Virus record (IMG/VR): IMGVR_UViG_3300020477_000014 | Coordinates: 124,001-188,000 of that record | Reading direction: 5' to 3' (one strand) | From: a virus | Length of the DNA: 64,000 nt | In this document: piece after piece, positions 21,221-57,967 of the stretch | Layout of the letters: the number at the start of each line of letters is the position of its first letter | Position numbering within the stretch: position 1 is the first letter of the stretch | Position numbers and translations under genes: made by a program | The notes under the pieces: generated by a model | Database searches by the model: none | The model's input: only the letters and a program-made list of their open reading frames with translations | What the model was told of the DNA's origin: nothing

Positions 21221-21231
21221 AGGAGGCAAAG

Positions 21232-40570: not shown

Positions 40571-40987
40571 ATGGACGGGTGGTCATTATTAATTGTAGTG
40601 CTGGCATTTATTAGCGGCTTTATATTTTGTAAGATTCTCGATTTTTTTGCGGCATCGTCATTGGCTGTAAAGATTGTCAAGACAGCTAACCTAACTGCTT
40701 TGTATCTGTTTGTCAAGAGTTTTGAGAAAATTATCTATTATAATAATTTGACTTTGAATGACTATATAAAGAGAGAGGACAACGAAAGAAACATTGAAGT
40801 GTTTAAGAGAAATCTGGATCAAGAAGTGGAACTCTTTAAGAAAAGATGTATCTCTACCTTAGTGGAAGCGCGACCAAGCATCTTTCGTAATGTCACACCC
40901 TATCACGATTGGCCCAGTGCCATGATGTATCTTAATACGAATAGGGATTTTGTATTAGAACTCTTCAAAGGAAATCAAAATGATTAG
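40571..40987 (+). CDS. membrane-anchored protein of unknown function
   Basis: The 138-residue protein has one or two hydrophobic N-terminal segments (WSLLIVVLAFISGFIF, then ASSLAVKIVKT) followed by a charged helical cytoplasmic or periplasmic domain rich in Lys, Glu and Asn. It overlaps the ClpP-like gene by eight bases, so the two are probably expressed together; it could tether the protease to the membrane, which is an inference. Confidence 0.6.
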   Translation: MDGWSLLIVVLAFISGFIFCKILDFFAASSLAVKIVKTANLTALYLFVKSFEKIIYYNNLTLNDYIKREDNERNIEVFKRNLDQEVELFKKRCISTLVEARPSIFRNVTPYHDWPSAMMYLNTNRDFVLELFKGNQND

Positions 40988-41630
40988 AAAAATTATTAAG
41001 AAATGGTTAATTGGCGAAGAGGATCCGTCAGCCTCTCACAACAAAAGCCGCGTGGTGGTAATAGATCCGAATTCTATGGAACCCCCCACGCCAGAGCCTG
41101 AACTAAAGACAATCGGACTTTTTTGTGACATTCAAGAAGAGAAGATAGCGGAAATTATTCATGCGTTGTTGTATCTTAATGAAGCCAACAGGCTTCAAAA
41201 GGATCCAGAGAAAAGACAACCCATCGAATTCTATCTCTCCACCTACGGCGGGAGTGCCGATGACATGTTTGCTTTGTACGACATGATGAAGACTGTTGAA
41301 GATGAGACGGAGATTCATACGTATGGTTTGGGTAAAGTAATGTCAGCCGGTGTGCTTATTCTTGCTGCTGGCACGAAAGGAAAACGAAAGATTGGAAAAA
41401 ACTGTCGAGTGATGCTCCACTCTGTGATAGCTGGTACCGGTGGACCTCTCCATAATCTAGTTAATGAGATAGAAGCGATTCAAGATCTCCAAAAAACATA
41501 CATTAAGTGTTTAGCAGAAGAAACAAAAATGTCCAAAAAAGAGATCAAAAACATGCTAGAACAAAAGGTAAATGTCTATTTATCAGCAGAAGAAGCAGTT
41601 GAATTAGGAATTGCAGACATTATTGTTTGA
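40980..41630 (+). CDS. ClpP-like serine protease
   Basis: The 216-residue protein has the ClpP fold: IGLFCDI (start strand), PIEFYLSTYGGSADDMFALYDMM (the ClpP 'NSPGG'-like loop), the nucleophile in GKVMSAGVLILAAG (Ser near 121), the His in VMLHSVI (near 143) and the C-terminal LSAEEAVELGIADIIV. In ClpP the third triad member, Asp, lies two residues before this LS; here the aligned position reads NVYLS with Asn. So Ser and His are kept and the acidic member may be altered. Targets, and any unfoldase partner, are unknown. It is coupled to the membrane protein gene. Confidence 0.8.
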   Translation: MIRKIIKKWLIGEEDPSASHNKSRVVVIDPNSMEPPTPEPELKTIGLFCDIQEEKIAEIIHALLYLNEANRLQKDPEKRQPIEFYLSTYGGSADDMFALYDMMKTVEDETEIHTYGLGKVMSAGVLILAAGTKGKRKIGKNCRVMLHSVIAGTGGPLHNLVNEIEAIQDLQKTYIKCLAEETKMSKKEIKNMLEQKVNVYLSAEEAVELGIADIIV

Positions 41631-41639
41631 GGTGTTTAT

Positions 41640-42962
41640 ATGTCAGATTTAAAAGAAGCTTTAGATAAAGCTTATAAGAAACAAAATGCAAAAATCACAG
41701 TCGATGCTCTCACTGGGATGATCAATGAAGCATTGGACGCGGTGTATGATGAGGTGGTGGCCAAACCCGCTGTCAAAGAGGCGCGCCTGAAGAAAGAACA
41801 GGCAAAGACTTTTATGTTATCTTTGCCGAAGTTTACGCCCTCTGAAGCATGGGGTGATCCAAACTCTATGGAAAGACAACAGATACAACAGATTTTTAAT
41901 GTTATCGGGGGAGAGCGCACGATTAAAGCAAAGTTGGGGTTTCTTCAAAGAATCGCCAGTCCTGATAATCGAATTCGATCGCCGCGTCGTATCATTTCTT
42001 CTCTTATTATTCTGGAGTCTCTAAGTGCTGTCATTAATAGCTTTAATTCTTCTAGCGCTGGCTTTGTGTTTGAGGGATTTCTGGCAGCACTCTTTCAAGG
42101 GGCGCAAGAGGCGGGAGTAGATACAACCGCCGGTAGTCTTCCTATTGAAGACCTTATTGCGTTTAGTGATACCGACAAAGCGGTCCCTATTAGTTTGAAG
42201 CTTCTTAACCAAACGACCCAAGTGGAGGGAAGCTATACCAACCTCATAGACGGTTTAAGTAAGTTTGGCCACATGGTTTATCTTGTAGCCAGAAAAGATT
42301 CCGACGGCTCGGGGATCAATATAGAACAATTTACATTAGATAAAGACAATTTTGTCAAAGCCCTGAGCCAGTCTGCTAGGGGTGGCTCGAAGAAAGGCGC
42401 TTCCGTTTTTCAGATCGTCGACCACCCCGATTTAGGAACGCTAAACGTTGCCCAATCTCTTCAGCTTTTAAACTCGATAGTGTCAAAGGACAATCCCCAA
42501 GAATGGGAGAAGAAGTATGATATTCTTCAACACACCAAAGGATATTCGGGCAAAGTTAGAGACAAGAGGAAGAGGGAAAAAGAAGCCGCGGCGCTCAAAG
42601 CAGCCCAAAGTGAGGGTGGGTTGGACATGGATAGCCAAACCTCCCTGCAAGAGTCCAAAGGCGGCACACAATGGTCGATCAGCCCCGCTCAGCTTGTCTC
42701 TTTTGACTTTGTTGAATACGATCATTTGGGAGAGCTTAAATATTCTGAGGAAGAATTAAAAAAGACAGCCGAAATGCATATGGCGAAATTAGACGAGGAA
42801 TTGTTGGTCCTTTTTGAAGCCACACAGGGTCTTTCTGAGCATGTCAATGAATATTTTACATATGAAAAAAGATCCAAAGCCATCTCGTCCGGAGAAAAAG
42901 CAATTCAAGACACTGTTACCATCCAGAAATCTTTAACAGCACAAATTTCAGCAGACAAATAA
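41640..42962 (+). CDS. large phage protein with possible PD-(D/E)XK-like core
   Basis: The 440-residue protein starts after GAGGTG, nine bases downstream of clpP. Its first 120 residues are helical and charged. Residues about 140-200 read FVFEGFLAALFQG, then PIEDLIAFSDTDKAVPISLKLL, in the order helix-Glu, Asp, Ser-X-Lys, like the protein at 20486; this resembles a PD-(D/E)XK site but is not proof. The last 180 residues hold coiled-coil-like charged stretches. Similar large proteins are known in marine T4-like phages, without known function. Confidence 0.45.
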   Translation: MSDLKEALDKAYKKQNAKITVDALTGMINEALDAVYDEVVAKPAVKEARLKKEQAKTFMLSLPKFTPSEAWGDPNSMERQQIQQIFNVIGGERTIKAKLGFLQRIASPDNRIRSPRRIISSLIILESLSAVINSFNSSSAGFVFEGFLAALFQGAQEAGVDTTAGSLPIEDLIAFSDTDKAVPISLKLLNQTTQVEGSYTNLIDGLSKFGHMVYLVARKDSDGSGINIEQFTLDKDNFVKALSQSARGGSKKGASVFQIVDHPDLGTLNVAQSLQLLNSIVSKDNPQEWEKKYDILQHTKGYSGKVRDKRKREKEAAALKAAQSEGGLDMDSQTSLQESKGGTQWSISPAQLVSFDFVEYDHLGELKYSEEELKKTAEMHMAKLDEELLVLFEATQGLSEHVNEYFTYEKRSKAISSGEKAIQDTVTIQKSLTAQISADK

Positions 42963-42963
42963 C

Positions 42964-42992
42964 TTGACAACTCAACCATTAACGGTTATAAT
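42964..42992 (+). promoter_or_regulatory. consensus sigma70 promoter before groEL
   Basis: TTGACA (42964-42969), 17 bases, TATAAT (42987-42992). It starts within five bases of the preceding stop codon. Confidence 0.9.
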
Positions 42993-42994
42993 AT

Positions 42995-43010
42995 AAATAT
43001 ATGTATATTT
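42995..43010 (+). other. leader hairpin of the groEL transcript
   Basis: AAATAT, ATGT, ATATTT form a weak 6-bp AT stem just after the -10 box, ahead of the ribosome site GAGGTG. Like the leader hairpins at 16465, 22393 and 40528 it lies at the very 5' end of the mRNA. Confidence 0.4.
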
Positions 43011-43023
43011 TTGTGAGGTGCAA

Positions 43024-44595
43024 ATGAGTAGAGAATACGGCAACAACCGAGATCTCCAACAGCGAATCTTGAACGGAGCCAATGTTTTAGCAGACAACGT
43101 AGCTTCCACACTTGGACCACGTGGTCGCAATGTTTTGTTGCGAGAGATAGGAAAACAACCCTTTATTACTAAAGATGGGGTTACGGTCGCACATTTTGTG
43201 GAACTGAGCGATCCCATTGAAGATGCAGGCGCGCAAATTATAAAACAAGCTGCTATCGAAACCAACAACAAAGCCGGCGACGGCACTACAACCTCTACTG
43301 TGTTAGCACGTGCTATTTTGCGTGAATCGCAGCCACATTTGGCATCGGGCGTTTCTCCGATTGAATTACAGCGCGGTATTGATTTGGCAACTCGGGCCAT
43401 ATCTTCTCTTTTGAGTGAAAGCTCGACACCCGTTACTACGGCTGAAGATATTGAGCATATTGCCACTATTTCTGCTAACAACGATCAAACTATTGGCAAA
43501 CTTATTTCTTTGGCTGTTGATCGCGTAGGTCAAGATGGCTCTATCACCATTGAAGAGTCTCGTTCTATGGACACGACGCTGGATGTGACAGAGGGGTTTC
43601 GATTAGCTGCGGGGTTTTGTGCTGGCGCATTTGTTACCGATGAACGCCGCAACATGATGGTTCACCAAGATCCTCTTTTTCTTATTACTGATTATAAGAT
43701 TAGCACAGTTGAGCAAATCTTACCTGTGTTAGAGATGGTTGCTCGCGAGGCGCGACCATTAATTATTGTAGCGGAGGATATCGATGGACAAGCATTGGCA
43801 GCGTTAATTATGAATTCAATGCGGGGAAGTCTCAAGGTGGCTGCTATCAAGGCTCCTGAGTATGGAGAGGATAGACGCAACACTCTCAACGATCTTTCTA
43901 TTTCTACGGGAGCAGTCTTTGTAACACGAGAAAGCGGTAAAAAACTTACAGATGTAAAGATGGCAGATTTAGGCACGGCGAAATATATCGAAAGCACCAA
44001 AAGAGCTTCGACTATTGTAGGTGGGAATTGCGATTTTAAGGCTGTTGAGGCGCGTATAGAGACCCTTAAGAACATTATTGGTACCTTGGACAACCTTCAT
44101 GAATGCGCGCGCATACAAGAGCGTATCGTGCGTCTTTCTTCGGGCGTGGCTGTTGTGCGTGTTGGGGGTGCGACTGAGGTAGAAATGACCGAAAAGAAGC
44201 ATCGAATCGAAGATGCACTAGAGGCTGTTCGTTCTGCTCAAGAAGAGGGAGTAGTCACCGGTGGGGGAGTGGCGCTTTTGAGGGCGGCAGCCAAGCTAAT
44301 AATAGAAACTTCCAACCGAGAACAAGCTATTGGCGTGGAGATAGTCAAGGTGGCGTGTAGAGAGCCGTTACGTCAGATGGCAATGAACGCCGGTGAATCC
44401 CCGGATTTAGTAGCAGCACAAGTGATGGCTTCTGAGAGGAATATTGGGTGGGATTTTCGAGAGCGCAAACTAACTGATCTTATGGAAAGGGGGATCATTG
44501 ATCCCGTTAAAGTTACACGCACCGCTTTGGAAAACGCTGCTAGCTGTGCAGGTACTCTTATTACTACTAACTATGGAATTATACAGACAGGATAA
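43024..44595 (+). CDS. groL: chaperonin GroEL (Hsp60)
   Basis: The 523-residue protein is a full group I chaperonin that folds proteins inside an ATP-driven double ring with a GroES lid. Motifs: TLGPRGRNVLL, TKDGVTVAHFV, the ATPase loop AGDGTTTSTVLA, and IEDALEAVRSAQEEGVVTGGGVALL with the catalytic Asp. Bacterial GroEL is about 548 residues and ends in a GGM repeat; this one lacks that tail and ends GIIQTG. It begins at ATG 43024 after GAGGTG; GTG 43018 is a less likely start. It has its own strong promoter and pairs with the GroES at 26845. Confidence 0.93.
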   Translation: MSREYGNNRDLQQRILNGANVLADNVASTLGPRGRNVLLREIGKQPFITKDGVTVAHFVELSDPIEDAGAQIIKQAAIETNNKAGDGTTTSTVLARAILRESQPHLASGVSPIELQRGIDLATRAISSLLSESSTPVTTAEDIEHIATISANNDQTIGKLISLAVDRVGQDGSITIEESRSMDTTLDVTEGFRLAAGFCAGAFVTDERRNMMVHQDPLFLITDYKISTVEQILPVLEMVAREARPLIIVAEDIDGQALAALIMNSMRGSLKVAAIKAPEYGEDRRNTLNDLSISTGAVFVTRESGKKLTDVKMADLGTAKYIESTKRASTIVGGNCDFKAVEARIETLKNIIGTLDNLHECARIQERIVRLSSGVAVVRVGGATEVEMTEKKHRIEDALEAVRSAQEEGVVTGGGVALLRAAAKLIIETSNREQAIGVEIVKVACREPLRQMAMNAGESPDLVAAQVMASERNIGWDFRERKLTDLMERGIIDPVKVTRTALENAASCAGTLITTNYGIIQTG

Positions 44596-44599
44596 AATC

Positions 44600-44851
44600 A
44601 TGAACAATGCACATCTCGAGAAAGGCGATCTAATACATATTCCTCAAGGGGTCTTCTTGTTATGCGAAGGGGGGTCGAGTCACCATAGAACCGATCGTCC
44701 TCGTACCGCTTTGTTTCTTGGAGAAACACCTGTAGCAAAGTGGGCTCTGGAATGTCATGCGCGTGTTCTTCTAGATGGAAAAGAGTTTAATGTAAGATCG
44801 GATCACATCTATTTACTTAAAGAAAAGGAGAAGAAATCACATGTTAGTTAA
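44600..44851 (+). CDS. GDLV-family small protein (divergent copy)
   Basis: The 83-residue protein starts at ATG 44600 after AGGATAAA. Its start LEKGDLIHIPQG resembles the M-x-x-GDL opening of the small proteins at 54097-62542, but the loops differ. It probably forms a compact SH3-like beta barrel. It is five bases downstream of groEL and overlaps the next gene, so it is part of the groEL operon. Confidence 0.5.
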   Translation: MNNAHLEKGDLIHIPQGVFLLCEGGSSHHRTDRPRTALFLGETPVAKWALECHARVLLDGKEFNVRSDHIYLLKEKEKKSHVS

Positions 44852-45146
44852 ACTTACAGAAATATGCTCTAATGGCGCAGTTACCGTTGGGCACAAGTAC
44901 AAATTGAGGGAAGTGTTTGTTAATCCAGAACATGTAGTCCTTATTCGGGAAGAGACTCGCGTACGCGAACTCAATGAAAATGGGATGTTAAACTTGCCCG
45001 GCACCGACACGCTCAACAAGAGCCATCGTTTTTCTAAATTAACTATCAATCGAGGGCATTCAGGCTCTGAGATTGTGGTGGTGGGCGCCCCAGATCAGGT
45101 AGAGAGCAGTCTCAAATTAAATAATCGGACTGTTTTAAGAGGATAA
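44841..45146 (+). CDS. hypothetical protein
   Basis: The 101-residue protein overlaps the preceding gene by 11 bases; AAGGAG precedes its ATG. It is beta-rich with basic residues (VLIREETRVRELNENG, FSKLTINRG) and ends in an amphipathic segment. The motif GAVTVGHKYKLREVFVNPEHVV is seen in small proteins of several T4-like phages from memory, but no role is known. Confidence 0.55.
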   Translation: MLVKLTEICSNGAVTVGHKYKLREVFVNPEHVVLIREETRVRELNENGMLNLPGTDTLNKSHRFSKLTINRGHSGSEIVVVGAPDQVESSLKLNNRTVLRG

Positions 45147-45147
45147 A

Positions 45148-45477
45148 ATGTCGCAGCGAATTAATATAACTTATTCAATTAAATTAGAAGATCTGGACAA
45201 CGAAGTACGCCGGCTTCTCCATGGGGCTTTTCAGCGTTTATCGGAGGCGCGCGATAAACATGAATCCTTAAGAAGTGAAGACGAGAGGGTTTTAACTAGA
45301 GAGTGTTTTGATGAAATAGATGGACTGCGGCGCACCTTATCGGATGTTGATGTAACTTTGGGAGACATTAATACATTGATTGCCTCTTATTTAAGTTATG
45401 AAGCCCAACAAGTTCAGCCACCTCCGTCGCGACCTGATATTTCTAGTTCTGATGTAATTCATGAAGACTCCGATTAA
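45148..45477 (+). CDS. hypothetical helical protein
   Basis: The 109-residue protein starts at ATG 45148 directly after the previous stop. Residues about 10-90 are a long charged alpha-helical stretch with coiled-coil character, ending in a Pro/Ser/Asp tail. Nothing indicates an enzyme. It overlaps the degenerate methylase gene by 17 bases. Confidence 0.55.
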   Translation: MSQRINITYSIKLEDLDNEVRRLLHGAFQRLSEARDKHESLRSEDERVLTRECFDEIDGLRRTLSDVDVTLGDINTLIASYLSYEAQQVQPPPSRPDISSSDVIHEDSD

Positions 45478-46234
45478 AGATGCGACCAGGACCAATCTTT
45501 GTTTGCGTAGCCTTAAGGACATTATACCCGTAGGTGCGGTGGTAGATTCGTATTTGTTTTACGGAGGGGCAATAGAGTTTGCGTTGGCCAAAACGCATCG
45601 GGTGATTAATGCATATACCGCTAGCCCTTACGTGTATGAGTTTTGGGATATGGTAAGGCGTGACAAGACTTTAATTGCTAAAATTAGTAGCTCTTCTCCT
45701 TCCAAGTTGGAGGGGGAGATGTTTCCCCTTCTTCAAGATACGTGGCACACATATAAGCGTGATTTTATTCGTGCGTCGATGTTTTTCATTCTTAATAGAT
45801 GTTCGTCGCGAGGGTTAATTTCGAGCGGCGAAATGTGTTTGGAAAACTTTAATCCTGTTGCTCTTAGTTATTTAAATAATTTTCATTTTCCAGAAGCCTT
45901 TTCTCTAGAGTGTGTCCCTTCGCGCCAACTAGTTGATATGGTTCAAATTGAAACAAAGGCAGATTATATTTTTATTCCTTGCGGAACTTTTAGCTATAAT
46001 TTGTTTGAAGAAGGAAAGAGTTTGGGACCCGAAGAGACTGGCATCAATCATATCGAATTGCGTGATTTGCTACGCAGCATTACAACGCCTTGGATATTAA
46101 GCTATCAGCAGCATCCAGCCCTGGACCGCGTTTTTGATCGAGAAAGCATGCGCTTTATAGATGCTTATGGTAATCGTGTAACAGATCGGTCCGAAGCTAC
46201 AGAGCTTTTAATATCCAACAGTTTGCTCACCTGA
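45461..46234 (+). CDS. degenerate Dam-like (D12) methyltransferase paralogue
   Basis: The 257-residue protein retains the D12 layout but not the catalysis. VDSYLFYGGAIEFALAKT matches motif I of the Dam at 19581 (LGGGSFELAL), MFFILNRCSSRGLISSGE matches its FYAINRSSFSGATFSGG segment, and WILSYQQHP matches WVMSYNDSP. At motif IV the catalytic DPPY is replaced by IPCGTFSY. It is unlikely to methylate DNA; a DNA-binding or regulatory use is possible. The end overlaps a minus-strand gene by eight bases, tail to tail. Confidence 0.6.
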   Translation: MKTPIKDATRTNLCLRSLKDIIPVGAVVDSYLFYGGAIEFALAKTHRVINAYTASPYVYEFWDMVRRDKTLIAKISSSSPSKLEGEMFPLLQDTWHTYKRDFIRASMFFILNRCSSRGLISSGEMCLENFNPVALSYLNNFHFPEAFSLECVPSRQLVDMVQIETKADYIFIPCGTFSYNLFEEGKSLGPEETGINHIELRDLLRSITTPWILSYQQHPALDRVFDRESMRFIDAYGNRVTDRSEATELLISNSLLT

Positions 46235-46817
46235 TGCTATCGTATAACATAATCATCGTTTGGTCCACATCTCGATCGGAAAGAATGGGTTGAATCTTGA
46301 TAACAACTGGTTCTTTTTCGTTAGCCTGAAAGCCGGTACCTACGACTCCGCCGATGGATTTAACTTCTTTTTCCTTGTTAACGATTTTGGTTTTGGTATG
46401 CTTGACATAGGAAGATTGTCCTTGGACCTTGCCGCTGTCATCAATTAACAGCAGACTTAGGCTAGCCTGATTGTCATTTATAACCACCGTACTACGAAGG
46501 AGCCACACACTGTTTTCTTGCATACACTTATAAGTAGCTTTTTGGAAGTCACACTCAGGATACCGCAAACCTACGGTATCTCGATTATAGATGGCATGGA
46601 TGGTTCCGTTCTTGAACCAAGGCTTGTGGTGGCGATTGGCTGCCACAAACAATGTTGAAGCGTCGTTTTTATAATTACAGGAGTCGCACACCACCTTGGG
46701 ATCTTCCATATAGATCTCCACATAGCGACTGTCTTTAACAGTGATGCTTAAATCAGGCTGCCATGGTGAAGCCGTATCTTCTTCTGCATAAACTAAACTG
46801 AGTAAAAACATTAACAT
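46227..46817 (-). CDS. secreted or periplasmic protein on the minus strand
   Basis: The 196-residue protein has a signal peptide: MLMFLLSLVYA with likely cleavage after VYA, then a polar acidic region. Four cysteines (CDSC, then CDF and CMQ) could form two disulfides, as suits the periplasm. No family is recognised. It faces against all its neighbours and is preceded on the minus strand by GAGGTG and the motif ACTATTTAA at 46832, so it is a late gene on its own transcript. A role in envelope interaction or lysis is possible. Confidence 0.65.
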   Translation of the reverse strand: MLMFLLSLVYAEEDTASPWQPDLSITVKDSRYVEIYMEDPKVVCDSCNYKNDASTLFVAANRHHKPWFKNGTIHAIYNRDTVGLRYPECDFQKATYKCMQENSVWLLRSTVVINDNQASLSLLLIDDSGKVQGQSSYVKHTKTKIVNKEKEVKSIGGVVGTGFQANEKEPVVIKIQPILSDRDVDQTMIMLYDSIR

Positions 46818-46831
46818 AACACACCTCTTTC

Positions 46832-46840
46832 TTAAATAGT
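46832..46840 (-). promoter_or_regulatory. putative late promoter motif on the minus strand (ACTATTTAA)
   Basis: Read on the minus strand, ACTATTTAA lies 15 bases before the secreted protein's ATG, with AGAAAGAGGTG between. It shows that the late motif works in either orientation and is not a base-composition artefact of the plus strand. Confidence 0.5.
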
Positions 46841-46861
46841 GTGTTAAAACTTAAATAATAC

Positions 46862-46890
46862 TTGACATTAATGCACAAATGTGTTAAGAT
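46862..46890 (+). promoter_or_regulatory. sigma70-type promoter before the cupin gene
   Basis: TTGACA (46862-46867), 17 bases, TAAGAT (46885-46890). Divergent to the late promoter of the minus-strand gene; the two share a 22-base spacer region. Confidence 0.8.
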
Positions 46891-46916
46891 AATAGTAATT
46901 ACCTGGAGATATAACA

Positions 46917-47246
46917 ATGAAGAGAATTGACAAACCATGGGGCCATGAAATTATTTGGGCTGTCACGCCTGATTATGTGGGTAAGATTTTGCACATCAAT
47001 GCAGGTCACCGACTCTCTAAGCAATATCATGAGATTAAAGAAGAAACTGTCTATGTTTTGGAGGGCACTCTTTATAATTATGAAGAAGATGGGTGTATCA
47101 CCAAAGTGTTGCCGGGAAACGCCTTTCACGTGAACGTAGGTCAGGTCCACCGCTTTGGTGCGAACGAGAGCCATGTGAGGTTGGTAGAGGTGAGCACCCC
47201 TCATTTGGAGGATGTCGTTAGGTTAGAAGATGATTACGACAGATAA
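46917..47246 (+). CDS. cupin-domain protein (mannose-6-phosphate isomerase type II-like)
   Basis: The 109-residue protein is a single cupin barrel: KPWGHEIIWAVT, GKILHINAGHRLSKQYHEIKEET with the metal-binding His pair and Glu, and FHVNVGQVHRFGA. The start KPWG.E and H-x-Q-x-H-like order match the C-terminal domain of GDP-mannose pyrophosphorylase/phosphomannose isomerases. It may act on a sugar or bind one; no partner sugar gene is seen. ATG follows CTGGAGA and a promoter. Confidence 0.8.
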   Translation: MKRIDKPWGHEIIWAVTPDYVGKILHINAGHRLSKQYHEIKEETVYVLEGTLYNYEEDGCITKVLPGNAFHVNVGQVHRFGANESHVRLVEVSTPHLEDVVRLEDDYDR

Positions 47247-47259
47247 TACAAAATTACTA

Positions 47260-47268
47260 ACTATTTAT
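47260..47268 (+). promoter_or_regulatory. putative late promoter motif ACTATTTAT
   Basis: The motif is 23 bases before the ATG of the 1146-residue gene, the same distance as before the tape-measure gene. Confidence 0.55.
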
Positions 47269-47290
47269 AGTATTATCGAGGTTTTTTAAT

Positions 47291-50731: not shown

Positions 50732-50735
50732 GGAA

Positions 50736-51605
50736 ATGAGGAATTTTTGGAAGGTATTATTGCGCATGACGGGGCTAATTTTGGTTGGTTGTGTTGTGGC
50801 GATCGCGACCATCCACTCTGTCACCAAAAGTTATGAAATACCACGGAGAGAAGAAATCCGCAATATCGACAATATAAATAGATCTTTGTCAACATCTCAC
50901 CAGCGCGCTATAAATAGATCGCGAAAGAGTTCGGTAAGGGTGATGTCGGTATCTCCGAGTCTCGGTGGTGTTTCCACGTCTTCAGGTACTTATATTTCTT
51001 TCCGCGGCGAGTATTATATTTTAACAGTAGCTCATGGTTTAATTGGCGGATGCGAAGGAACTGCGGTAGTAACTCCTAAAGGCACCTATCACTGCAAGTA
51101 CATTGTCGAAAGAAATAATTTAATTGATTATAGCATTTTGGCTGTAGATCCTATTCCCGAACTTAAAGCTATTCCTGTTCCACAGTTTCTACCCAGAGGC
51201 GACCAATGGAAAAAAGATTTTTCCATCATGACCCCCACTTACTATACAGGATTTCCTAACGGAATGGGACCATTCACTATTGATGGCAAGGTGGTGGGAT
51301 ATAATGAAAATGACTTTCTTTATATAAAGTCCTACGGCTGGGCGGGATGTTCGGGCGCTGGAGTGTTTAGTGAAAGTGGACACTTGGTGGCGTATATTTT
51401 GGCATTGACTGTAGGGCAGACCGAATATGGCTATAATGTCGCAGAGGATATCGTAATTGGAGTACCACTTTTTAAGGTAAATTGGCTTTCAATTATAGAA
51501 AACAAAAAACAGGAGACAAGAAAAGATGAAGAAAAAGAACAATCCACTGAATCCGGACTACCGGACAGTTCTAGCACAGATTCAGGCGTTGGATCTACAG
51601 ATTGA
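50736..51605 (+). CDS. membrane-anchored trypsin-like serine protease
   Basis: The 289-residue protein begins with a hydrophobic helix (residues about 9-27, LRMTGLILVGCVVAIATI), an uncleaved anchor or signal. The catalytic triad is readable: TVAHGL (His about 101), IDYSILAVDP (Asp about 134) and AGCSGAGVF (Ser about 205, in the GNSGG position). C-terminal residues about 250-289 are a Ser/Asp/Glu-rich tail. It should act outside the inner membrane, in the periplasm. The end overlaps the next gene by 80 bases. Target unknown; lysis, envelope or defence roles are guesses. Confidence 0.78.
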   Translation: MRNFWKVLLRMTGLILVGCVVAIATIHSVTKSYEIPRREEIRNIDNINRSLSTSHQRAINRSRKSSVRVMSVSPSLGGVSTSSGTYISFRGEYYILTVAHGLIGGCEGTAVVTPKGTYHCKYIVERNNLIDYSILAVDPIPELKAIPVPQFLPRGDQWKKDFSIMTPTYYTGFPNGMGPFTIDGKVVGYNENDFLYIKSYGWAGCSGAGVFSESGHLVAYILALTVGQTEYGYNVAEDIVIGVPLFKVNWLSIIENKKQETRKDEEKEQSTESGLPDSSSTDSGVGSTD

Positions 51606-51783
51606 TAATCTTTCAACTCAGATTCAACAAATCAAGAAAGGGTTTGAGACCTCTTCCCCCAATGAAGAGGTGACAGAAGAGGTCTGCCTGGACGAGATTG
51701 AAGCCAACAAAGCCGCACTAGAGGCTATGAGGACCTTTTGTTTGGAGGCTATGTTGGATGTTGACCCCCAAGGAGAGGCATGA
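51526..51783 (+). CDS. small helical protein
   Basis: The 85-residue protein starts inside the protease gene, after ACAGGAGACAAGAAAAG. It has a long coiled-coil-like segment (VLAQIQALDLQIDNLSTQIQ) and an acidic second half. The 80-base overlap with the protease tail means that the last 27 residues of that tail are constrained by this frame. Confidence 0.55.
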   Translation: MKKKNNPLNPDYRTVLAQIQALDLQIDNLSTQIQQIKKGFETSSPNEEVTEEVCLDEIEANKAALEAMRTFCLEAMLDVDPQGEA

Positions 51784-52130
51784 TGTCTGAAGACACAAAA
51801 GAAAATGAACCATTACTTACTGAGCCGGAAGATCTTAAGCCTAAAAAGCCGAGCAACCGCGCACCAGAAGGTATAAGAAGTTTCACAGTGTGCCGTCAGC
51901 ATGATGAGTCGGGCATTTCCGGAGAAGGGGTAGTTATAGAAGGTGTGATGTTCGCCACTGGACATACCGTTATCCATTGGTTAACGCCGGCACCACGTGG
52001 GAGCATAGCGTTTTTTGATGCTTTTGATGACTTTATGAAGATTCATGTCACATCCCATCCTTCTAATAACACAATTTTAACCTTTGATGATGGCGAGCAG
52101 ACTATATATGAAGGAGGGGGCAAGATATGA
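51780..52130 (+). CDS. conserved-looking small phage protein
   Basis: The 116-residue protein overlaps the previous stop by ATGATG. An acidic Pro-rich N-terminus is followed by a small beta domain: RSFTVCRQHDESGISG, VVIEGVMFATGHTVIHWLTP, SIAFFDAFDDFMKIHVT. It resembles small T4-like phage proteins of unknown function that accompany virion genes. The ATG at 51783 is an alternative start. Confidence 0.55.
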   Translation: MMSEDTKENEPLLTEPEDLKPKKPSNRAPEGIRSFTVCRQHDESGISGEGVVIEGVMFATGHTVIHWLTPAPRGSIAFFDAFDDFMKIHVTSHPSNNTILTFDDGEQTIYEGGGKI

Positions 52131-53059
52131 AGAAAGATACGACACCGCTGCGTTCATGGTGGGAGTTTTTAACGGAGGCACCTAAACCTACTCGCAAGAG
52201 TGGCAGAGGATTAGAAAGATCTCTGCATTGGTTTTTGGATACAGGCCCCCAAAAAAAGGGAGGTTATCAAAACCGACGCGCGCGTTTTGGTAAAAAGAAA
52301 TCCAAGAACATTTCTCCACCCGCGGGCGCCCCCGGGGGCTTGGAAGAAGAAGTAGATCCGGAATCTTTTAAGATACAAGATGGCTTAGAACCCAATATTT
52401 GGGCTGACGATCAAAACGTCCACCCTCACGTACGCGACCGTCTTTTAACTATAGCGTCGGATTTTTTAGATTCTTTGGATGTCCCAGTCGAAATGGTAGA
52501 TATCACTTTCACTGGTTCATTGGCAAACTATAATTGGTCAGACTATTCGGACATAGATCTTCATATTGTGGTAGATTTTGATAGGATGGATTCGAATTCT
52601 AAACTGGTTAAAAAGTTTTTTGATGCATCGCGCTTAAGGTGGAACGATAAGCATGCTATTAACCTATACGGTTACGAGGTGGAAATTTATGTGGAGAATG
52701 TAAACGAAGAACACCATTCGACGGGAGTATATTCGCTGCTGCGCGAAGAGTGGCTTAAAGAGCCTGATCCCACCCAGCTTACAAATGCGTGGACCGCGCT
52801 AGCTCGTAAAAAAAGTGATGATATGTTAAGCCAAATTAATCTTATTCAGCACATTGTGAAGAAAAAACCAAAAGCAGCAATTCGCAGTATTGAGCGCTTA
52901 AAATCAAAAATTAGCGTTATGCGCCAGAAAGGACTGAAGAGCCACGAAGGGGAGTCCTCGGTAGGAAATGTGGTTTTTAAGATCCTCCGACGAGAGGGAG
53001 CACTGGATCAGTTGAGCAACCTCAAAACCCAGGCTTACGATAGCGCATTTAGTTTATGA
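52127..53059 (+). CDS. predicted nucleotidyltransferase
   Basis: The 310-residue protein starts in an ATGA overlap. Residues about 1-90 are basic and Gly/Pro-rich, probably disordered. At about 127-150 the text FTGSLANYNWSDYSDIDLHIVV is the nucleotidyltransferase motif (GS, then S-D-x-D-x-H), with a third acidic residue in VEIYVENVN. The C-terminal 100 residues are helical and basic. Such NTases transfer nucleotides to RNA, proteins or antibiotics; the substrate here is unknown. Confidence 0.65.
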   Translation: MKKDTTPLRSWWEFLTEAPKPTRKSGRGLERSLHWFLDTGPQKKGGYQNRRARFGKKKSKNISPPAGAPGGLEEEVDPESFKIQDGLEPNIWADDQNVHPHVRDRLLTIASDFLDSLDVPVEMVDITFTGSLANYNWSDYSDIDLHIVVDFDRMDSNSKLVKKFFDASRLRWNDKHAINLYGYEVEIYVENVNEEHHSTGVYSLLREEWLKEPDPTQLTNAWTALARKKSDDMLSQINLIQHIVKKKPKAAIRSIERLKSKISVMRQKGLKSHEGESSVGNVVFKILRREGALDQLSNLKTQAYDSAFSL

Positions 53060-53068
53060 GGGAAAGGG

Positions 53069-53308
53069 ATGGAATTCTACGACATTAACAAAGATGCTAA
53101 AGTGTACCCTGGAGAATATTTGTTGTACACTCCAAAGAATACAATTGTGGTGTGCGGCGCTTATCTTAGTGACGCTCAAAAAATCAAGGCTCTTTCTGAT
53201 GGGCGATTAATTGAGGACAGTGTTCAGAATTTTCGGAAAATTCGCTTGAATAAAGAGGACCGTAGAAAATCTCGACAAACGCGGTGCAAGGGGTGTTCGC
53301 AACAATGA
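53069..53308 (+). CDS. small basic protein
   Basis: The 79-residue protein starts after GAGGGAAAGGG. It is beta-rich at first (YPGEYLLYTPKNTIVVCG) and very basic at the end (RKSRQTRCKGCSQQ), with three Cys. The basic tail with CKGC might bind nucleic acid or metal. Its stop overlaps the next start by ATGA. Confidence 0.5.
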   Translation: MEFYDINKDAKVYPGEYLLYTPKNTIVVCGAYLSDAQKIKALSDGRLIEDSVQNFRKIRLNKEDRRKSRQTRCKGCSQQ

Positions 53309-53538
53309 ACCGTATCGAATCGGTTTGTTTCATGTGCACATTGCAACTTAAACAGTTGGAAGAAAGAGAAAAAAGATTATTATTAGAGATTGAGGACGGA
53401 AGAGTTCAAATGGCTTATATACGATTGCTTATGGATGAGATAAGGAAAATCAATGTATTAAACTATTTGGATGTAGATAAAACGTTTTATGATGTAACAG
53501 GAAAGAAATATGAAAAAGGCAAAGATAAAGCTGAGTAG
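53305..53538 (+). CDS. small coiled-coil protein
   Basis: The 77-residue protein starts at ATG 53305 in the ATGA of the preceding gene. CFMCTLQLKQLEEREKRLLLEIEDG is a Cys pair followed by a coiled coil. No family is recognised. It overlaps the next gene by 29 bases. Confidence 0.5.
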   Translation: MNRIESVCFMCTLQLKQLEEREKRLLLEIEDGRVQMAYIRLLMDEIRKINVLNYLDVDKTFYDVTGKKYEKGKDKAE

Positions 53539-53788
53539 TTATGATGTAGATGGACCGTTCTTGGAAGCCCGTGAGCGCATATGGGACTTTAAAGAGGGAA
53601 TAATATTTACAGGAATGATTCAAGATACAGTGGCGGCCCTCCGGCAGTCCGAAGAAGAATATGAATTGGCAATTCTCATGGACGATCCCGAATTAGCCTT
53701 AGAGAAAAGAAGAGAAATAGAGGCACTTTCCAAGTCTTTGGTGTTCGCGGCAAAACTATTAGAAGAAGAAAATGGAATAGATGCATGA
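53510..53788 (+). CDS. small acidic helical protein
   Basis: The 92-residue protein starts after AGGAAAG within the previous gene. It is almost entirely helical with many Glu, including the segment DDPELALEKRREIEALSKSL. It overlaps the next gene by four bases (ATGA). No function can be given. Confidence 0.5.
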   Translation: MKKAKIKLSSYDVDGPFLEARERIWDFKEGIIFTGMIQDTVAALRQSEEEYELAILMDDPELALEKRREIEALSKSLVFAAKLLEEENGIDA

Positions 53789-54048
53789 CCAAAATTTATA
53801 TCTATTGCTTGTTTGATACGTTTGATAGATTTTTGGGAGTGTATTCATCTCTCAAGGCAGTACATCGGGATGCACTGCGCTATTGCAATACAGGAAACTC
53901 GCGAGTTTTTATGATTCAAAATAACACTGCCAACATCCCTTCGTTGGTTTTATTACGTAATACTTTCAAGGGCACATGCGACGTTGAAGTGGAATATCGC
54001 ACCGACACCGCTTCGGTTCGTATTTTCAAAACAAAAATACGAGAATGA
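53785..54048 (+). CDS. small hypothetical protein
   Basis: The 87-residue protein starts at the ATGA junction. Its N-terminus TKIYIYCLFDTFDRFLGVYSSL is beta/aromatic-rich and recalls the opening of the tandem pair at 63481 and 63813 (MNIWVVSSYYES and MKIYVVATCYES), but this is only a weak likeness. The C-terminal half is basic. Confidence 0.45.
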   Translation: MTKIYIYCLFDTFDRFLGVYSSLKAVHRDALRYCNTGNSRVFMIQNNTANIPSLVLLRNTFKGTCDVEVEYRTDTASVRIFKTKIRE

Positions 54049-54096
54049 GTTGCGCCTGATAGATGTGCTCTATTTACTATTATGGTATGGTATGGA

Positions 54097-54333
54097 GTGG
54101 AATGCGGCGATCTTGTTAGGTGGATATCAGATTGGCACATATATGCAGTCGATAGCTTGGGGGATGTGCATGGCGAACGCCCCATGTATTCATATGGAGT
54201 GGTATTAGAGAATTACGACAAGGTGGGGCTGATTTTGGTTTATTGTCACAGCACCAAGCGCCGCACTATATTGAATTTAGATATGTTGGATTGCGAAGTG
54301 ATCAGTCGTGTTCAAAAAAAGATTGACATATGA
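54097..54333 (+). CDS. GDLV-family small protein
   Basis: The frame is open from ATG 54082, but a GTG at 54097 gives MECGDLVRWISDWH, which aligns with the family opening M-x-x-GDLV, so it is preferred. The family core YGVVLENYDKVGLILVYCHST is present (about residues 34-55), followed by a short C-terminal part. The ribosome site is poor (TATGGAG). It overlaps no other gene. Confidence 0.45.
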   Translation: MECGDLVRWISDWHIYAVDSLGDVHGERPMYSYGVVLENYDKVGLILVYCHSTKRRTILNLDMLDCEVISRVQKKIDI

Positions 54334-54351
54334 AGAAATAGGTGTTATAAT
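54323..54351 (+). promoter_or_regulatory. consensus sigma70 promoter
   Basis: TTGACA (54323-54328), 17 bases, TATAAT (54346-54351). The -35 box lies in the last codons of the GDLV gene ending at 54333. Confidence 0.9.
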
Positions 54352-54370
54352 ATAATATACAGGAGAATAA

Positions 54371-54736
54371 ATGTCAAAAGTTAAAGTCGGCGACTTGGTA
54401 TGTTTGTATAGGCGTAAAAAAGAAGGATTAGGATTAGTACTCAAGAAGGAGGCAGACTTAGCCTCTATGGGGGGGTTTGAACCCGAGTTGTTGTATCGAC
54501 CGCCCCCCGCCTCTAAGCATATTAATTGGTGGTATGCTATTGAAGAGGCTATTCGAGATGCAATTGATCCAAAAGCCGCGCAAGCCTATGTGAGTTATAA
54601 TCATTACGGCAAGAAGAAGAATCTGAAAAAGAAATTTGTGTACGTTAAGTGGATCAAGAAGCCTTCTGATTATCACGCAGAGAAAATGCATGAAGATGAG
54701 CAATGGATCCCTGTCGATTGGGTTAAATCGGTATAG
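54371..54736 (+). CDS. GDLV-family protein (long version)
   Basis: The 121-residue protein starts after ACAGGAGA and opens SKVKVGDLVCLYRRKKEGLGLVLKK, the family signature. A central insert of about 40 residues (WWYAIEEAIRDAIDPKAAQAYV) separates the beginning from a C-terminal FVYVKWIKKPSDYHAEK and IPVDWVKSV, where other members have the V-x-W strand. It probably forms an SH3-like barrel with a helical insertion. It is driven by the strong promoter at 54323. Confidence 0.65.
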   Translation: MSKVKVGDLVCLYRRKKEGLGLVLKKEADLASMGGFEPELLYRPPPASKHINWWYAIEEAIRDAIDPKAAQAYVSYNHYGKKKNLKKKFVYVKWIKKPSDYHAEKMHEDEQWIPVDWVKSV

Positions 54737-54788
54737 TTGATACTTTATTTCAGCGAGTGAGATAGTTATGGTAATATGGTATTCTATA

Positions 54789-55439
54789 ATGGACAAGCTA
54801 CTTACCCAGATTGAAGAAACGTTACGCCGCTCCGTTTGTACGGGGTGGGATAGATCCTTTTTGGAATCCATTCATCATCAATTAGAAAAAGGCAAGGTTC
54901 TAACTGCCAAACAAAAGAGTGTGCTTGGAAGAGTGTTGTCTCAAAACACAGAAGTGGACGAAAAACACATGGAAGGGTGGAAGGAAGAGTATTATTCCAA
55001 ACACGCATCCGAAGCCATGATTGCTGCCTATTACCACCTTCAACATCCCTATTATCAATGTCAAGCTGAAGATATATTGAATGGGCGCGTACCCCGCCGC
55101 AAGCATTTCATTAAGATGATGAACAACAAACACACTCAAAAGGTTTTAAGAGAATCCAAAAAACACCCTCGTTTCAAGGCGGGAACCTATGTGCGCGCCA
55201 AGACTAATTTTGATCGCACACACATGTCATTTTCCACATGGAAGGATCCCCAGGAGAAGTTTTTAGATTGGGATGTAAAACGCCGCGCTTTTTTAGACTT
55301 TGGAAAAAAAGGTGGGCTAATTATAGGGATCGACCAAGAGATTCATTCGGCAGCCAAGGGGGCAAAGCGATATAAAATCTTGGCTATTGGCTGTGCATTG
55401 CCGTTTTATGTGGAAGAACGGTTCTTAAAGTATGGGTAG
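54789..55439 (+). CDS. hypothetical protein of the early region
   Basis: The 216-residue protein may start at ATG 54789 or the upstream ATG 54768; neither has a good ribosome site. The first 100 residues are helical and charged with AMIAAYYHLQHPYYQCQAEDIL, then a basic middle (RRKHFIKMMNNKHTQKVLRESKK) leads to a beta-rich C-terminal third (YKILAIGCALPFYVEERFLKYG). No family is recognised; the basic core could contact nucleic acid. Confidence 0.5.
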   Translation: MDKLLTQIEETLRRSVCTGWDRSFLESIHHQLEKGKVLTAKQKSVLGRVLSQNTEVDEKHMEGWKEEYYSKHASEAMIAAYYHLQHPYYQCQAEDILNGRVPRRKHFIKMMNNKHTQKVLRESKKHPRFKAGTYVRAKTNFDRTHMSFSTWKDPQEKFLDWDVKRRAFLDFGKKGGLIIGIDQEIHSAAKGAKRYKILAIGCALPFYVEERFLKYG

Positions 55440-55454
55440 TGCTATAGTTACCAT

Positions 55455-55688
55455 GTGGAAGGCGCACATGATACGAAATTTAAGGTAGGTGATTTAGTTC
55501 GAGGTTTTTATGATTTCGAGATTACATATTGTTTTGACGAGAGTGACCCGATGCGTCTTTTTTATGGAGTAATTATGGCTCACGGTGAGTCTAATATATT
55601 TTTTCCTTATGGAAATTATTTTTATCAGGTTTTATGTACGGATGGAACAATTAGATTTTTTACTGAATGGGAACTCAAAAAAGTTTAA
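55455..55688 (+). CDS. GDLV-family small protein
   Basis: The 77-residue protein starts at GTG 55455 with a weak ribosome site. FKVGDLVRGFYDFEITYCF is the family opening; LFYGVIMAHGESNIFFPYGNYFYQVL the central strand pair and TEWELKKV the end. It is the last protein-coding gene before tRNA-Leu; its end lies nine bases before the promoter that serves the tRNA. Confidence 0.6.
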   Translation: MEGAHDTKFKVGDLVRGFYDFEITYCFDESDPMRLFYGVIMAHGESNIFFPYGNYFYQVLCTDGTIRFFTEWELKKV

Positions 55689-55696
55689 GAAAGTAG

Positions 55697-55725
55697 TTGA
55701 CATTCATCAGCATATAGGTTATATT
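55697..55725 (+). promoter_or_regulatory. sigma70-type promoter of the tRNA-Leu transcript
   Basis: TTGACA (55697-55702), 17 bases, TATATT (55720-55725), 11 bases before the tRNA 5' end. Confidence 0.88.
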
Positions 55726-55735
55726 ATATAGGAAG

Positions 55736-55820
55736 GGGAGTGTGGTGGAATTCGGCAGACACATCGGACTTAAAATCCGTGGCTTTTTTAAGCGTGAGGG
55801 TTCAAATCCCTCCATTCCCA
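55736..55820 (+). tRNA. tRNA-Leu (anticodon UAA)
   Basis: The acceptor stem GGGAGTG (55736-55742) pairs with CATTCCC (55813-55819), with one G-U pair. The anticodon loop CTTAAAA gives UAA; the long variable arm GCTT...AAGC marks a class II Leu tRNA; the T arm is GAGGG-TTCAAAT-CCCTC. CCA is not encoded. The lowest base pair of the anticodon stem is U-U. It reads UUA (and UUG) leucine codons. A single-promoter transcript continues into 55859. Confidence 0.9.
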
Positions 55821-55858
55821 TTAATTCATCTTCATCAACAACCAAGGAGCAAGAAGAT

Positions 55859-56041
55859 ATGAGCACAATCAAACAAGTTAACAACGAGGTGAAGGAGCTA
55901 CGGAAGACCGTTAGCACCATGAGTAGCCGCATCAATCAATTGGTCGACGAGATTCACATTTTGCGAAGTGAAGTAAACCGTTTCAAATCCGATGTGGCCG
56001 GCGACATCACCAGTCTTGAGAACATGCACAAAGGGCGTTAG
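55859..56041 (+). CDS. small coiled-coil protein
   Basis: The 60-residue protein begins at ATG 55859 behind AAGGAGC. Almost all of it is a single amphipathic coiled coil (heptads of V/L/I with K and E). An upstream in-frame GTG at 55742 lies inside the tRNA and is rejected. It is on the tRNA-Leu transcript and stops next to the following gene. Confidence 0.65.
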   Translation: MSTIKQVNNEVKELRKTVSTMSSRINQLVDEIHILRSEVNRFKSDVAGDITSLENMHKGR

Positions 56042-56043
56042 TG

Positions 56044-56511
56044 ATGGACGTTGCCCGAACCTTGCAGCATTTAGAGCTTGCAGAAGATACGATGGTGTCC
56101 CTGAGTTGTGAAGATCATGGAGAGGTTTTTCACTACATGGACGATTATCGGGAGGACGTGTTAGCCAACACAGACATTGTGAGACAAGTAGCCGAATTGC
56201 TGGCTAATTTTGGAGAGCAGGTTTATTCGTATGGATCCAGCCTTTTGGGTCAATTACGAGAGGGTGGATACTTGGAAGAGTACGAGCGCGATGAGACATT
56301 CGCTGACTATTTAGAAGAGATCCTAAATGAACATTATCACGAAATTGAGTGCTTTGAGTTTACAACTACCAAGTATGATCACAAACGCGGGAGATGCACT
56401 ATAGAAGCATCGGTGGAGTTGCCCATTCACAGCTTGTTAGCCCAACCAAGAGCTTTTGACGGGTGGAAAGCTTCTGTCCGAACGCCACATGGAGTTTTGA
56501 TGATCGGATAG
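56044..56511 (+). CDS. hypothetical acidic protein
   Basis: The 155-residue protein starts at ATG 56044, three bases after the previous stop, or possibly at the overlapping GTG 56041. It is acidic and mixed, with ETFADYLEEILNEHYHEIECFEFTTTKYDHKRGRCTIEASVEL in the middle, resembling a small alpha/beta domain. It ends just before tRNA-Gly. Related sequences are known in T4-like phages from memory, with no known function. Confidence 0.55.
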   Translation: MDVARTLQHLELAEDTMVSLSCEDHGEVFHYMDDYREDVLANTDIVRQVAELLANFGEQVYSYGSSLLGQLREGGYLEEYERDETFADYLEEILNEHYHEIECFEFTTTKYDHKRGRCTIEASVELPIHSLLAQPRAFDGWKASVRTPHGVLMIG

Positions 56512-56517
56512 GGCATT

Positions 56518-56593
56518 GCGGGTGTAGCTCAGTTGGTAGAGCATCACGTTGCCAACGTGAATGTCGTGGGTTCGAGTCCCATCACCCGCTCCA
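56518..56593 (+). tRNA. tRNA-Gly (anticodon GCC)
   Basis: The acceptor stem GCGGGTG pairs fully with CACCCGC (56583-56589), the D loop has AGCTCAGTTGGTAGAGC, the anticodon loop TTGCCAA gives GCC, and the T arm is GTGGG-TTCGAGT-CCCAT. A discriminator T and encoded CCA end it at 56593. All arms are canonical. The minus-strand protease gene ends four bases later. Confidence 0.95.
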
Positions 56594-56596
56594 TCA

Positions 56597-57175
56597 TTAT
56601 TCAATAGTACATTGGACAACCTGGCTTTTCTTTTTCTGTTTGCGATCGCCTAATAAGAAATTGATTGGTTGGGTTGATTCGTTTTGGAGTCCCTTATCGT
56701 GGCTTCCAATCTTGTCCGTATAATTGTGCATCATATGACCGGGGCATTTAATATGTTTATAGCCCAACGCATGACCTATTTCGTGTTCTAATATGTGAGG
56801 CTGAAGAAGATGATCTTTACGAACGGTAACCACCGATCCAATCACGCTGTCGCCCATCGTCTTGGTCATCGTTTCCCCAAAGGTTCGCGGATCATAAAAG
56901 GACTCTTCCTTGATCACGATGGAGAATATCATTTCATTCCCGAGGCACCACGGAGTAGTGTCTCCATACTTTACAACGCCAAATTCGTGTCCTAAGCCAC
57001 GCCAGAAGTTTAGCGCTATCTCTACCCTCCGCCAATCTTTGACGCTCTTGGAGCAGATCCTCACGATTGGTGGAGCCTTCCAACTGGCTGTCTGCTTCGG
57101 TCGTGGGCACAACGCATCGGTCGGACCCGACTTTGGACAAGATAGCAATGAGAGTACGCATAATAAAAACCACAT
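56597..57175 (-). CDS. matrixin-like zinc metalloprotease, predicted lipoprotein (minus strand)
   Basis: The 192-residue protein starts at ATG 57175; the longer open frame upstream is probably not coding. MWFLLCVLSLLSC is a short signal peptide with a lipobox, lipidated Cys at residue 13. The zinc site HEIGHALGYKH and the PGHMMHNY Met-turn a dozen residues later are the metzincin signature (matrixin/astacin-like). It would be tethered in the envelope facing the periplasm or outside. It runs against all flanking genes and ends next to tRNA-Gly, suggesting an inserted cargo gene. The promoter is not clear. Confidence 0.75.
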   Translation of the reverse strand: MWFLLCVLSLLSCPKSGPTDALCPRPKQTASWKAPPIVRICSKSVKDWRRVEIALNFWRGLGHEFGVVKYGDTTPWCLGNEMIFSIVIKEESFYDPRTFGETMTKTMGDSVIGSVVTVRKDHLLQPHILEHEIGHALGYKHIKCPGHMMHNYTDKIGSHDKGLQNESTQPINFLLGDRKQKKKSQVVQCTIE

Positions 57176-57210
57176 TCTATAACTAAGTATAAACTTTTTC
57201 AGAAAAATAC

Positions 57211-57239
57211 TTGACAGGTAGATTGGGATGTGATATATT
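57211..57239 (+). promoter_or_regulatory. sigma70-type promoter before the ClpS operon
   Basis: TTGACA (57211-57216), 17 bases, TATATT (57234-57239). It lies in the 80-base gap between the minus-strand protease start and the gene at 57258. Confidence 0.88.
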
Positions 57240-57257
57240 ATATACAGGAGGTAAGTT

Positions 57258-57641
57258 ATGGAAAAATATACAGCAGACGATAACAGATTAATGCAACTCA
57301 ACACTGAGGACACCGCCGAACTTAATATATGTGCGGATATTTATAGTTATATGTGCGGTATTCAAGATGTGGATGTGGAATTAAATGAATTGGTGAGAAT
57401 GGCCAGCCTGGGCGAACACCGGACACTGTTTAATGATTTGCACAAATGGTGTGATCAACATTCGACTTACACTAATCATACTATTTCAAGAATTGCTGAG
57501 TATATCCAAGGATGCTTCACCGAGAACGCTCCTGTAGATGGTGCCATCCTGGCAGCTTATAAAAACACCATTGAAAGAGATAGTGTGTTAGACGAGTTAG
57601 ATGCCATAATTGTTCGGCTGCGCGAGGAAGTGAGGGTTTAA
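57258..57641 (+). CDS. hypothetical acidic helical protein
   Basis: The 127-residue protein starts after AGGAGG. It is helical and rich in Asp, Glu and Asn with many Cys-free stretches; the C-terminus ends in IVRLREEVRV. Its stop overlaps the ClpS start by one base (TAATG), so the two are coexpressed. Family unknown. Confidence 0.55.
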   Translation: MEKYTADDNRLMQLNTEDTAELNICADIYSYMCGIQDVDVELNELVRMASLGEHRTLFNDLHKWCDQHSTYTNHTISRIAEYIQGCFTENAPVDGAILAAYKNTIERDSVLDELDAIIVRLREEVRV

Positions 57642-57967
57642 TGACACAGAAAAAGAAAGACAACAAAGAAGGTGCGGGCGTTGGACTTAAAGATCGAGAA
57701 AAGAACAAGATCCAACGCCCCCGAAAGTTCAAGGTCGTGTTTATGAACGACGACTATACGCCCATGGACTTTGTGGCGGCGTTGTTGATGGAAGTCTTTC
57801 ATAAGTCTGTGGATGATGCGAAGACCATCACCATGAACGTCCACGAACAGGGGAAGGGTATCGCTGGCGTGTACTCCCGCGAGATAGCGGAGACAAAGGC
57901 GATCAAAAGTGTAAAAATAGCCCGTAACCACGGGCATCCATTACTAATACAAGCAGAACCAGAATAG
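57641..57967 (+). CDS. clpS: ClpS, N-end rule adaptor
   Basis: The 108-residue protein matches ClpS throughout. RPRKFKVVFMNDDYTPMDFVAALL carries the Asn-Asp-Asp and Met residues of the N-degron pocket, VHEQGKGIAGVYSREIAETK holds the pocket His and the ClpA-contact region, and HGHPLLIQAE closes the fold. ClpS delivers proteins with Leu, Phe, Tyr or Trp at the N-terminus to ClpAP. The N-terminal 30 residues are Lys-rich and disordered. A ClpP-like gene is at 40980, so the phage may redirect host Clp proteolysis. Confidence 0.93.
   Translation: MTQKKKDNKEGAGVGLKDREKNKIQRPRKFKVVFMNDDYTPMDFVAALLMEVFHKSVDDAKTITMNVHEQGKGIAGVYSREIAETKAIKSVKIARNHGHPLLIQAEPE

Follow-up and report, generated by a model that had tools for sequence, protein, structure and literature searches.

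A candidate N-degron adaptor ClpS and a separate membrane protein-ClpP-GroEL module in a T4-like phage

Introduction

Does a phage that encodes both the adaptor ClpS and a ClpP-like protease use them as a single proteolytic system? This question is raised by a 64,000-nucleotide stretch (hereinafter the window; G000:C1:124001-188000) of a T4-like phage record of 189,712 bases, IMG/VR record IMGVR_UViG_3300020477_000014. The window contains a clpS gene and a clpP-like gene, and the original prediction took them together as a possible hijack of N-end rule proteolysis. Phage ClpS has been noted before, and its bringing targets to host ClpAP has already been proposed (Iyer 2021; PMC7824862). No experimental test of a phage ClpS came up in the literature that we found.

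Our analysis supports this prediction in part. The ClpS half, already in print, is plausible, while neither the ClpP half nor a link of ClpP to ClpS finds support. Judged from sequence comparison, ClpS is probably a working, phage-made N-degron adaptor that relies on the ClpA or ClpC and the ClpP of the host, with quality control as the best guess at its purpose, and phage ClpP is unlikely to be its partner. Of most interest for further work is a conserved membrane protein-ClpP-GroEL module in which ClpP has a Ser-His-Asn active site.

Results

The ClpS gene at 57641 was confirmed by its open reading frame (ORF) and by Pfam and PDB matches. Among PDB entries, Caulobacter ClpS matches it most closely (3dnj; E 2.8e-21), and the three motifs quoted in the original prediction, NDDYTPM, VHEQGKG, and HPLL, are all present. 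The NCBIfam ClpS equivalog cut-offs are missed (103.5 versus 149). The clpS start overlaps the stop of the preceding gene (TAATG), with a GAGG-like Shine-Dalgarno sequence ahead. L391, the nearest relative, likewise has a protein upstream of ClpS whose start is similar, and an ORF of similar look downstream, both as read by eye.

The residues of the N-degron pocket have been listed previously, including Caulobacter Met75 (Met62 of E. coli) in the specificity pocket (PMC12493166). In the alignment with E. coli ClpS, window ClpS retains Asn34, Asp35, Asp36, Thr38, Met40, Val43, Val65, His66, and Leu99. The ClpA contacts Glu79 and Lys84 are also retained, and both are invariant in all eight clade members. 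The unstructured N-terminal extension that delivery requires was compared by length, with 35 residues ahead of the Asn34 equivalent versus 33 in E. coli. Among the eight phage ClpS of the window clade (mean pairwise identity 52%), seven of nine pocket positions are invariant, compared with 23 of 81 core positions (hypergeometric P 0.0017). Because the pocket and the ClpA contacts are kept among relatives that are only ~52% identical, ClpS of this clade is likely under selection on its function.

At the position of E. coli Met62, window ClpS has Thr64. We counted this change with an exact pattern (NDDYTPM, 21 residues, Thr or Met, two residues, Val, Ile, or Met, and then His). In the viral collection, Thr is found in 58 stretches and Met in 62 (35 and 36 after 90% dereplication), while in 398 Pseudomonadota genomes Thr is found twice and Met 237 times. 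The change from Met62 to Thr is enriched in phages: it is present in about half of the viral NDDYTPM-type ClpS and in 2 of the 239 matching Pseudomonadota genomes. Thr64 may make the pocket larger and less greasy.

In the record, which may be incomplete, neither Clp_N nor AAA_2 nor the Leu/Phe transferase Aat gave a match. As far as the record reaches, the phage thus lacks ClpA, ClpX, and an N-degron-making transferase of its own, and action through host ClpA or ClpC is the natural reading. We infer the binding, delivery, substrates, and purpose of ClpS as follows. Phage ClpS would bind proteins with a bulky first residue, dock on the N-domain of host ClpA or ClpC, and deliver the bound proteins to the host's own ClpP. 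In doing so, it would lower the use by the host protease of other substrates, such as ssrA-tagged proteins.

Alternatively, ClpS could be chiefly a brake, which occupies the ClpA N-domain and spares ssrA-tagged or other phage-relevant proteins from ClpAP, with N-degron delivery being secondary. E. coli ClpS is indeed a known inhibitor of both ssrA-substrate degradation and ClpA autodegradation (PMC12493166), and the ClpA contacts are kept in the window clade. Key pocket residues are lost from the ClpS of several isolated jumbo phages, among them Atu_ph07 and GAP32, and some of these proteins, e.g. that of Atu_ph07, still keep the contact residues. However, the pocket of the window clade is clearly constrained, which would be unneeded for pure braking, and we consider this explanation rather unlikely.

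The gene neighborhood of viral ClpS points to quality control. Of 58 dereplicated viral loci, 17 have a same-strand Hsp20 gene at most 0.6 kb upstream of ClpS, and 21 have one within 2.5 kb; for random points in these loci, the 2.5-kb figure is 8%. GroEL, Hsp20, and ClpS are consecutive in one locus (L018, 7831-10291), and Hsp20 is ~0.7 kb or less from ClpS in PA5oct, Phosso, and Atu_ph07. The Hsp20 gene of the window phage adjoins genes that flank ClpS in relatives. The adjacency of Hsp20 and ClpS favors a role in protein quality control over an attack on host defence, and suggests that phage ClpS serves proteostasis. Our best guess is that ClpS would act in quality control during infection, together with the Hsp20, GroEL, and GroES-like protein of the phage. 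The claim that the adaptor redirects host ClpA is plausible with respect to the adaptor itself, given the pocket, the extension, the ClpA contacts, and the lack of an own ClpA or ClpX; nothing indicates the defence or housekeeping targets that were also proposed, and the neighborhood signal is Hsp20.

Several points weigh against a working adaptor with this purpose. The existence of a host ClpA or ClpC is assumed, ClpS is able to inhibit ClpA even when it delivers no substrate, and Thr at position 62 could weaken or alter N-degron binding. The pattern that yielded most ClpS loci includes DDYTPMDF and so favors intact pockets; L391, which is among the eight clade members and was found by hidden Markov model rather than by pattern, has NDNYTPM. 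Finally, the Hsp20 gene of the window phage, at record position 21401, is not adjacent to ClpS.

ClpS was described in the original prediction as very rare in phages. This agrees with the phage records, 32 of 50,697 of which have a ClpS match, and less well with the known ClpS of jumbo phages and the many viral stretches matched by the pattern scans above. Two of the 32 records are labelled Acinetobacter phage MD-2021a (CAKLQF020000008.1 and CAKLQH020000043.1); the former resembles a bacterial chromosome, with clpS adjoining clpA and argC nearby. In the ClpS tree, the window sequence belongs to a seven-phage clade (SH-aLRT 92). Viral and bacterial sequences separate with one change, but that split is weakly supported (48), and the bacterial ClpS in the tree are near matches only. 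Within these limits, recent capture of ClpS from a host is unsupported, since viral and bacterial ClpS lie on opposite sides of the tree.

The ClpP-like gene at 40980 and its coupling to a membrane protein were also borne out, by the Pfam match, the structural model, and the overlap of the two genes. The AlphaFold monomer of window ClpP matches ClpP structures with TM-scores of ~0.72 when normalized by the query and as high as 0.87 when normalized by the target (0.71-0.72 and 0.79-0.86 for 1yg6), and the gene product is predicted to have the ClpP fold. Out of 157 viral loci found in a search with window ClpP, we kept 80 (L311-L390), and these correspond to 58 distinct sequences including that of the window. 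Ser, His, and the oxyanion Gly-Gly are invariant in the 58 sequences, while the catalytic Asp is replaced by Asn in 57, so that the family departs from the Ser-His-Asp triad of canonical ClpP.

The hydrophobic cleft that docks the IGL/IGF loops of the ATPase is altered as well. At the positions that we take to form this cleft in E. coli ClpP, Tyr60 is replaced by Glu or Asp in 51 sequences, Phe112 by Lys in 55, and Leu114 by Gly in 56. The window ClpP family thus appears to have lost features for normal work in a Clp machine. AAA_2 was not found above cut-off in any of the 30 ClpP-module records, many of which are fragmentary, and a host ATPase could still be used.

These results bear on the proposal that ClpS and ClpP form one hijack system, in which host ClpA would be steered by ClpS, and phage ClpP would take the place of the protease chamber or become part of it, so that selected host proteins, for instance defence factors, are degraded. 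The two genes share one genome, and records G001, G004, and G005 have both on one stretch. Mixed host-phage ClpP is also conceivable, as the Asn-containing ClpP1 of Listeria forms mixed rings with normal ClpP (PMC5361862). However, clpS and clpP are 16 kb apart in the window, the docking cleft of phage ClpP is altered, and ClpS is absent from 29 of the 30 ClpP-module records, the sole carrier being the nearest relative (G450). Two of the records without ClpS are ~195 kb long, and many others are fragments. PADLOC gave no match, and a defence-related function was likewise rejected. The single hijack is therefore not upheld and is very improbable in our judgment. The absence of ClpS from these records, together with the altered cleft, argues that ClpS would depend on the host for both the ATPase (ClpA or ClpC) and ClpP, with phage ClpP in a separate module with its co-translated membrane protein.

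This module has the same order in the window (40571-44595) and in L311-L390: the membrane hairpin protein, Ser-His-Asn ClpP, one gene, and GroEL. In 74 of the 80 loci, clpP is directly preceded by an ORF that touches or overlaps its start and that mostly encodes a homologous protein of ~135 amino acids. In most loci reaching that far, GroEL is found mostly ~2-2.6 kb downstream of the ClpP start. PHROGs and phage records gave no match to the membrane protein of the window, and solved structures no significant one; its Pfam matches were scattered and all below threshold. No such module was found in isolated phages at comparable identity, and it is represented here by uncultured phages only. The family seems to be marine, a judgment that rests on co-occurring T4-like genes and on sample names as read rather than on checked metadata.

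Phage ClpP may well work alongside its membrane partner or as part of mixed rings. Specifically, it could be a membrane-tethered peptidase that the hairpin protein recruits in place of an ATPase, or its inactive ring could pair with host ClpP in the manner of Listeria ClpP1 and ClpP2. Listeria ClpP1, which has Asn at the same site, forms mostly inactive heptamers and works in a mixed complex with ClpP2 (PMC5361862). Besides this precedent, the membrane ORF next to the ClpP start in most loci, the conserved predicted hairpin with its hydrophobic N-terminus, the retention of Ser and His with Asn for Asp, the loss of the docking cleft, and the lack of AAA_2 above cut-off in the module records all fit such a peptidase. 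On the other hand, no solved structure matches the hairpin model significantly, and co-translation does not prove complex formation. We regard a tethered or hetero-oligomeric peptidase as a real possibility, at somewhat less than an even chance.

A third role considered for phage ClpP is head maturation. Among PHROGs, head maturation proteases match it best (E 4e-21), and an acidic ORF lies two genes upstream. However, a T4-type S77 prohead protease is encoded elsewhere in the record, ~59 kb from clpP (PF03420, 108.6 bits; record 105426-106028), and the NCBIfam model of head-maturation ClpP scores far under its cut-off. It is thus improbable that phage ClpP is the prohead protease.

Features of the window are collected in Table 1. 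Other than these, the phage has a T4-type terminase, the nearest relatives of which are those of Flavobacterium phage immuto (47%) and Microcystis phage Mel-JY01 (43%). Naming the host from phage relatives was tried and rejected: TerL and GroEL are closest to the Flavobacterium immuto phages, which at 45-47% identity are too distant. A protein with a trypsin-like peptidase domain, which could create new N-termini, is encoded at window 50736-51605 (PF13365, 42.4 bits). Adjoining Hsp20 is a weak phosphate-transporter-like protein (record 20325-21278; L050:325-1275; PF01384 22.9 bits, sub-cut-off), which is 82% identical in L002. Many unrelated proteins begin with one of the shared motifs MKLTKxQLKxxIKEEL or xxxWxxFxxE, as read by eye (record 2610, 2908, 3447, 4040, 4722, 6430, 95699, 96424, 96897, and 97187; window 52127). 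These motifs look like T4 capsid-targeting sequences.

Table 1. Features of the ClpS and ClpP loci and related genes, in window positions
Feature	Position	Strand	Length (amino acids)	Evidence
GroES-like co-chaperonin (weak)	26845..27150	+	101	PF00166 20.2 bits, slightly below the 21.1 cut-off
Membrane protein, predicted long helical hairpin, hydrophobic N-terminus	40571..40987	+	138	overlaps clpP start by 8 nt
ClpP-like protease (S14), Ser122-His147-Asn198	40980..41630	+	216	PF00574 109 bits (cut-off 20.2)
Asn198 codon at the catalytic Asp position	41571..41573	+		Asn in 57/58 family members
Protein between clpP and groEL	41640..42962	+	440	no Pfam or PHROG match
GroEL chaperonin	43018..44595	+	525	PF00118 215.8 bits; NCBIfam GroEL 584 bits
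ORF 5' of clpS	57258..57641	+	127	overlaps clpS start by 1 nt; no Pfam or PHROG match
clpS, probable N-degron adaptor	57641..57967	+	108	PF02617 97 bits (cut-off 23)
Thr64 codon of ClpS (E. coli Met62 position, specificity pocket)	57830..57832	+		alignment
ORF 3' of clpS	57977..58288	+	103	no Pfam or PHROG match

Discussion

Window ClpS is a clean candidate for a phage N-degron adaptor, with a nearly intact pocket and a defined phage-enriched change. Because the record has no phage ClpA, its dependence on the host is directly testable. The membrane protein-ClpP-GroEL module appears to depart from the general pattern in which ClpP is paired with a Clp ATPase. A bolder picture, which we hold only tentatively and think somewhat unlikely, is that the module works without a Clp ATPase, with the membrane partner recruiting or gating the protease or the phage ring docking on and changing host ClpP, while ClpS of the window lineage reads other N-degrons through its Thr-modified pocket.

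Window ClpS can be compared with the ClpS of the jumbo phages Atu_ph07, PA5oct, GAP32, and SCTP-2, and Hsp20 is close by in PA5oct and Atu_ph07. In contrast to window ClpS, the pocket is altered in the jumbo-phage isolates, for example by Glu or Lys in place of His66. PA5oct and Atu_ph07 also carry a Clp_N protein, unlike the window record, and the Atu_ph07 paper names several Clp proteins (PMC6102473). Nine ClpS-bearing IMG/VR records (G020, G024-G027, G036, G040, G041, and G009; loci L021, L025-L028, L037, L041, L042, and L010) also have ClpP and a ClpA-like Clp_N protein, and most have a ClpX-like protein too. With Clp_N protein and ClpP in addition to ClpS, the pathway could run without the host, and these phages, unlike the window phage, possibly encode self-sufficient ClpAPS machines.

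Compared with bacterial ClpS (E. coli 1r6o and Caulobacter 3dnj), window ClpS shares the fold family, the pocket, Glu79 and Lys84, and the N-terminal extension. It differs in being encoded by a phage, in not lying beside clpA, in the change from Met62 to Thr, and in belonging to a record that has no ClpA, ClpX, or Aat.

For window ClpP, the closest precedent is ClpP1 of Listeria monocytogenes, which shares the natural Asn at the catalytic Asp position. ClpP1, however, is bacterial and pairs with the normal ClpP2 of its own genome, whereas phage clpP has a co-translated membrane protein and a nearby GroEL gene. The head maturation proteases of phages (phrog_94) share the S14 fold and phage origin with window ClpP; unlike them, window ClpP lies outside the head gene cluster of a phage that has a separate S77 prohead protease.

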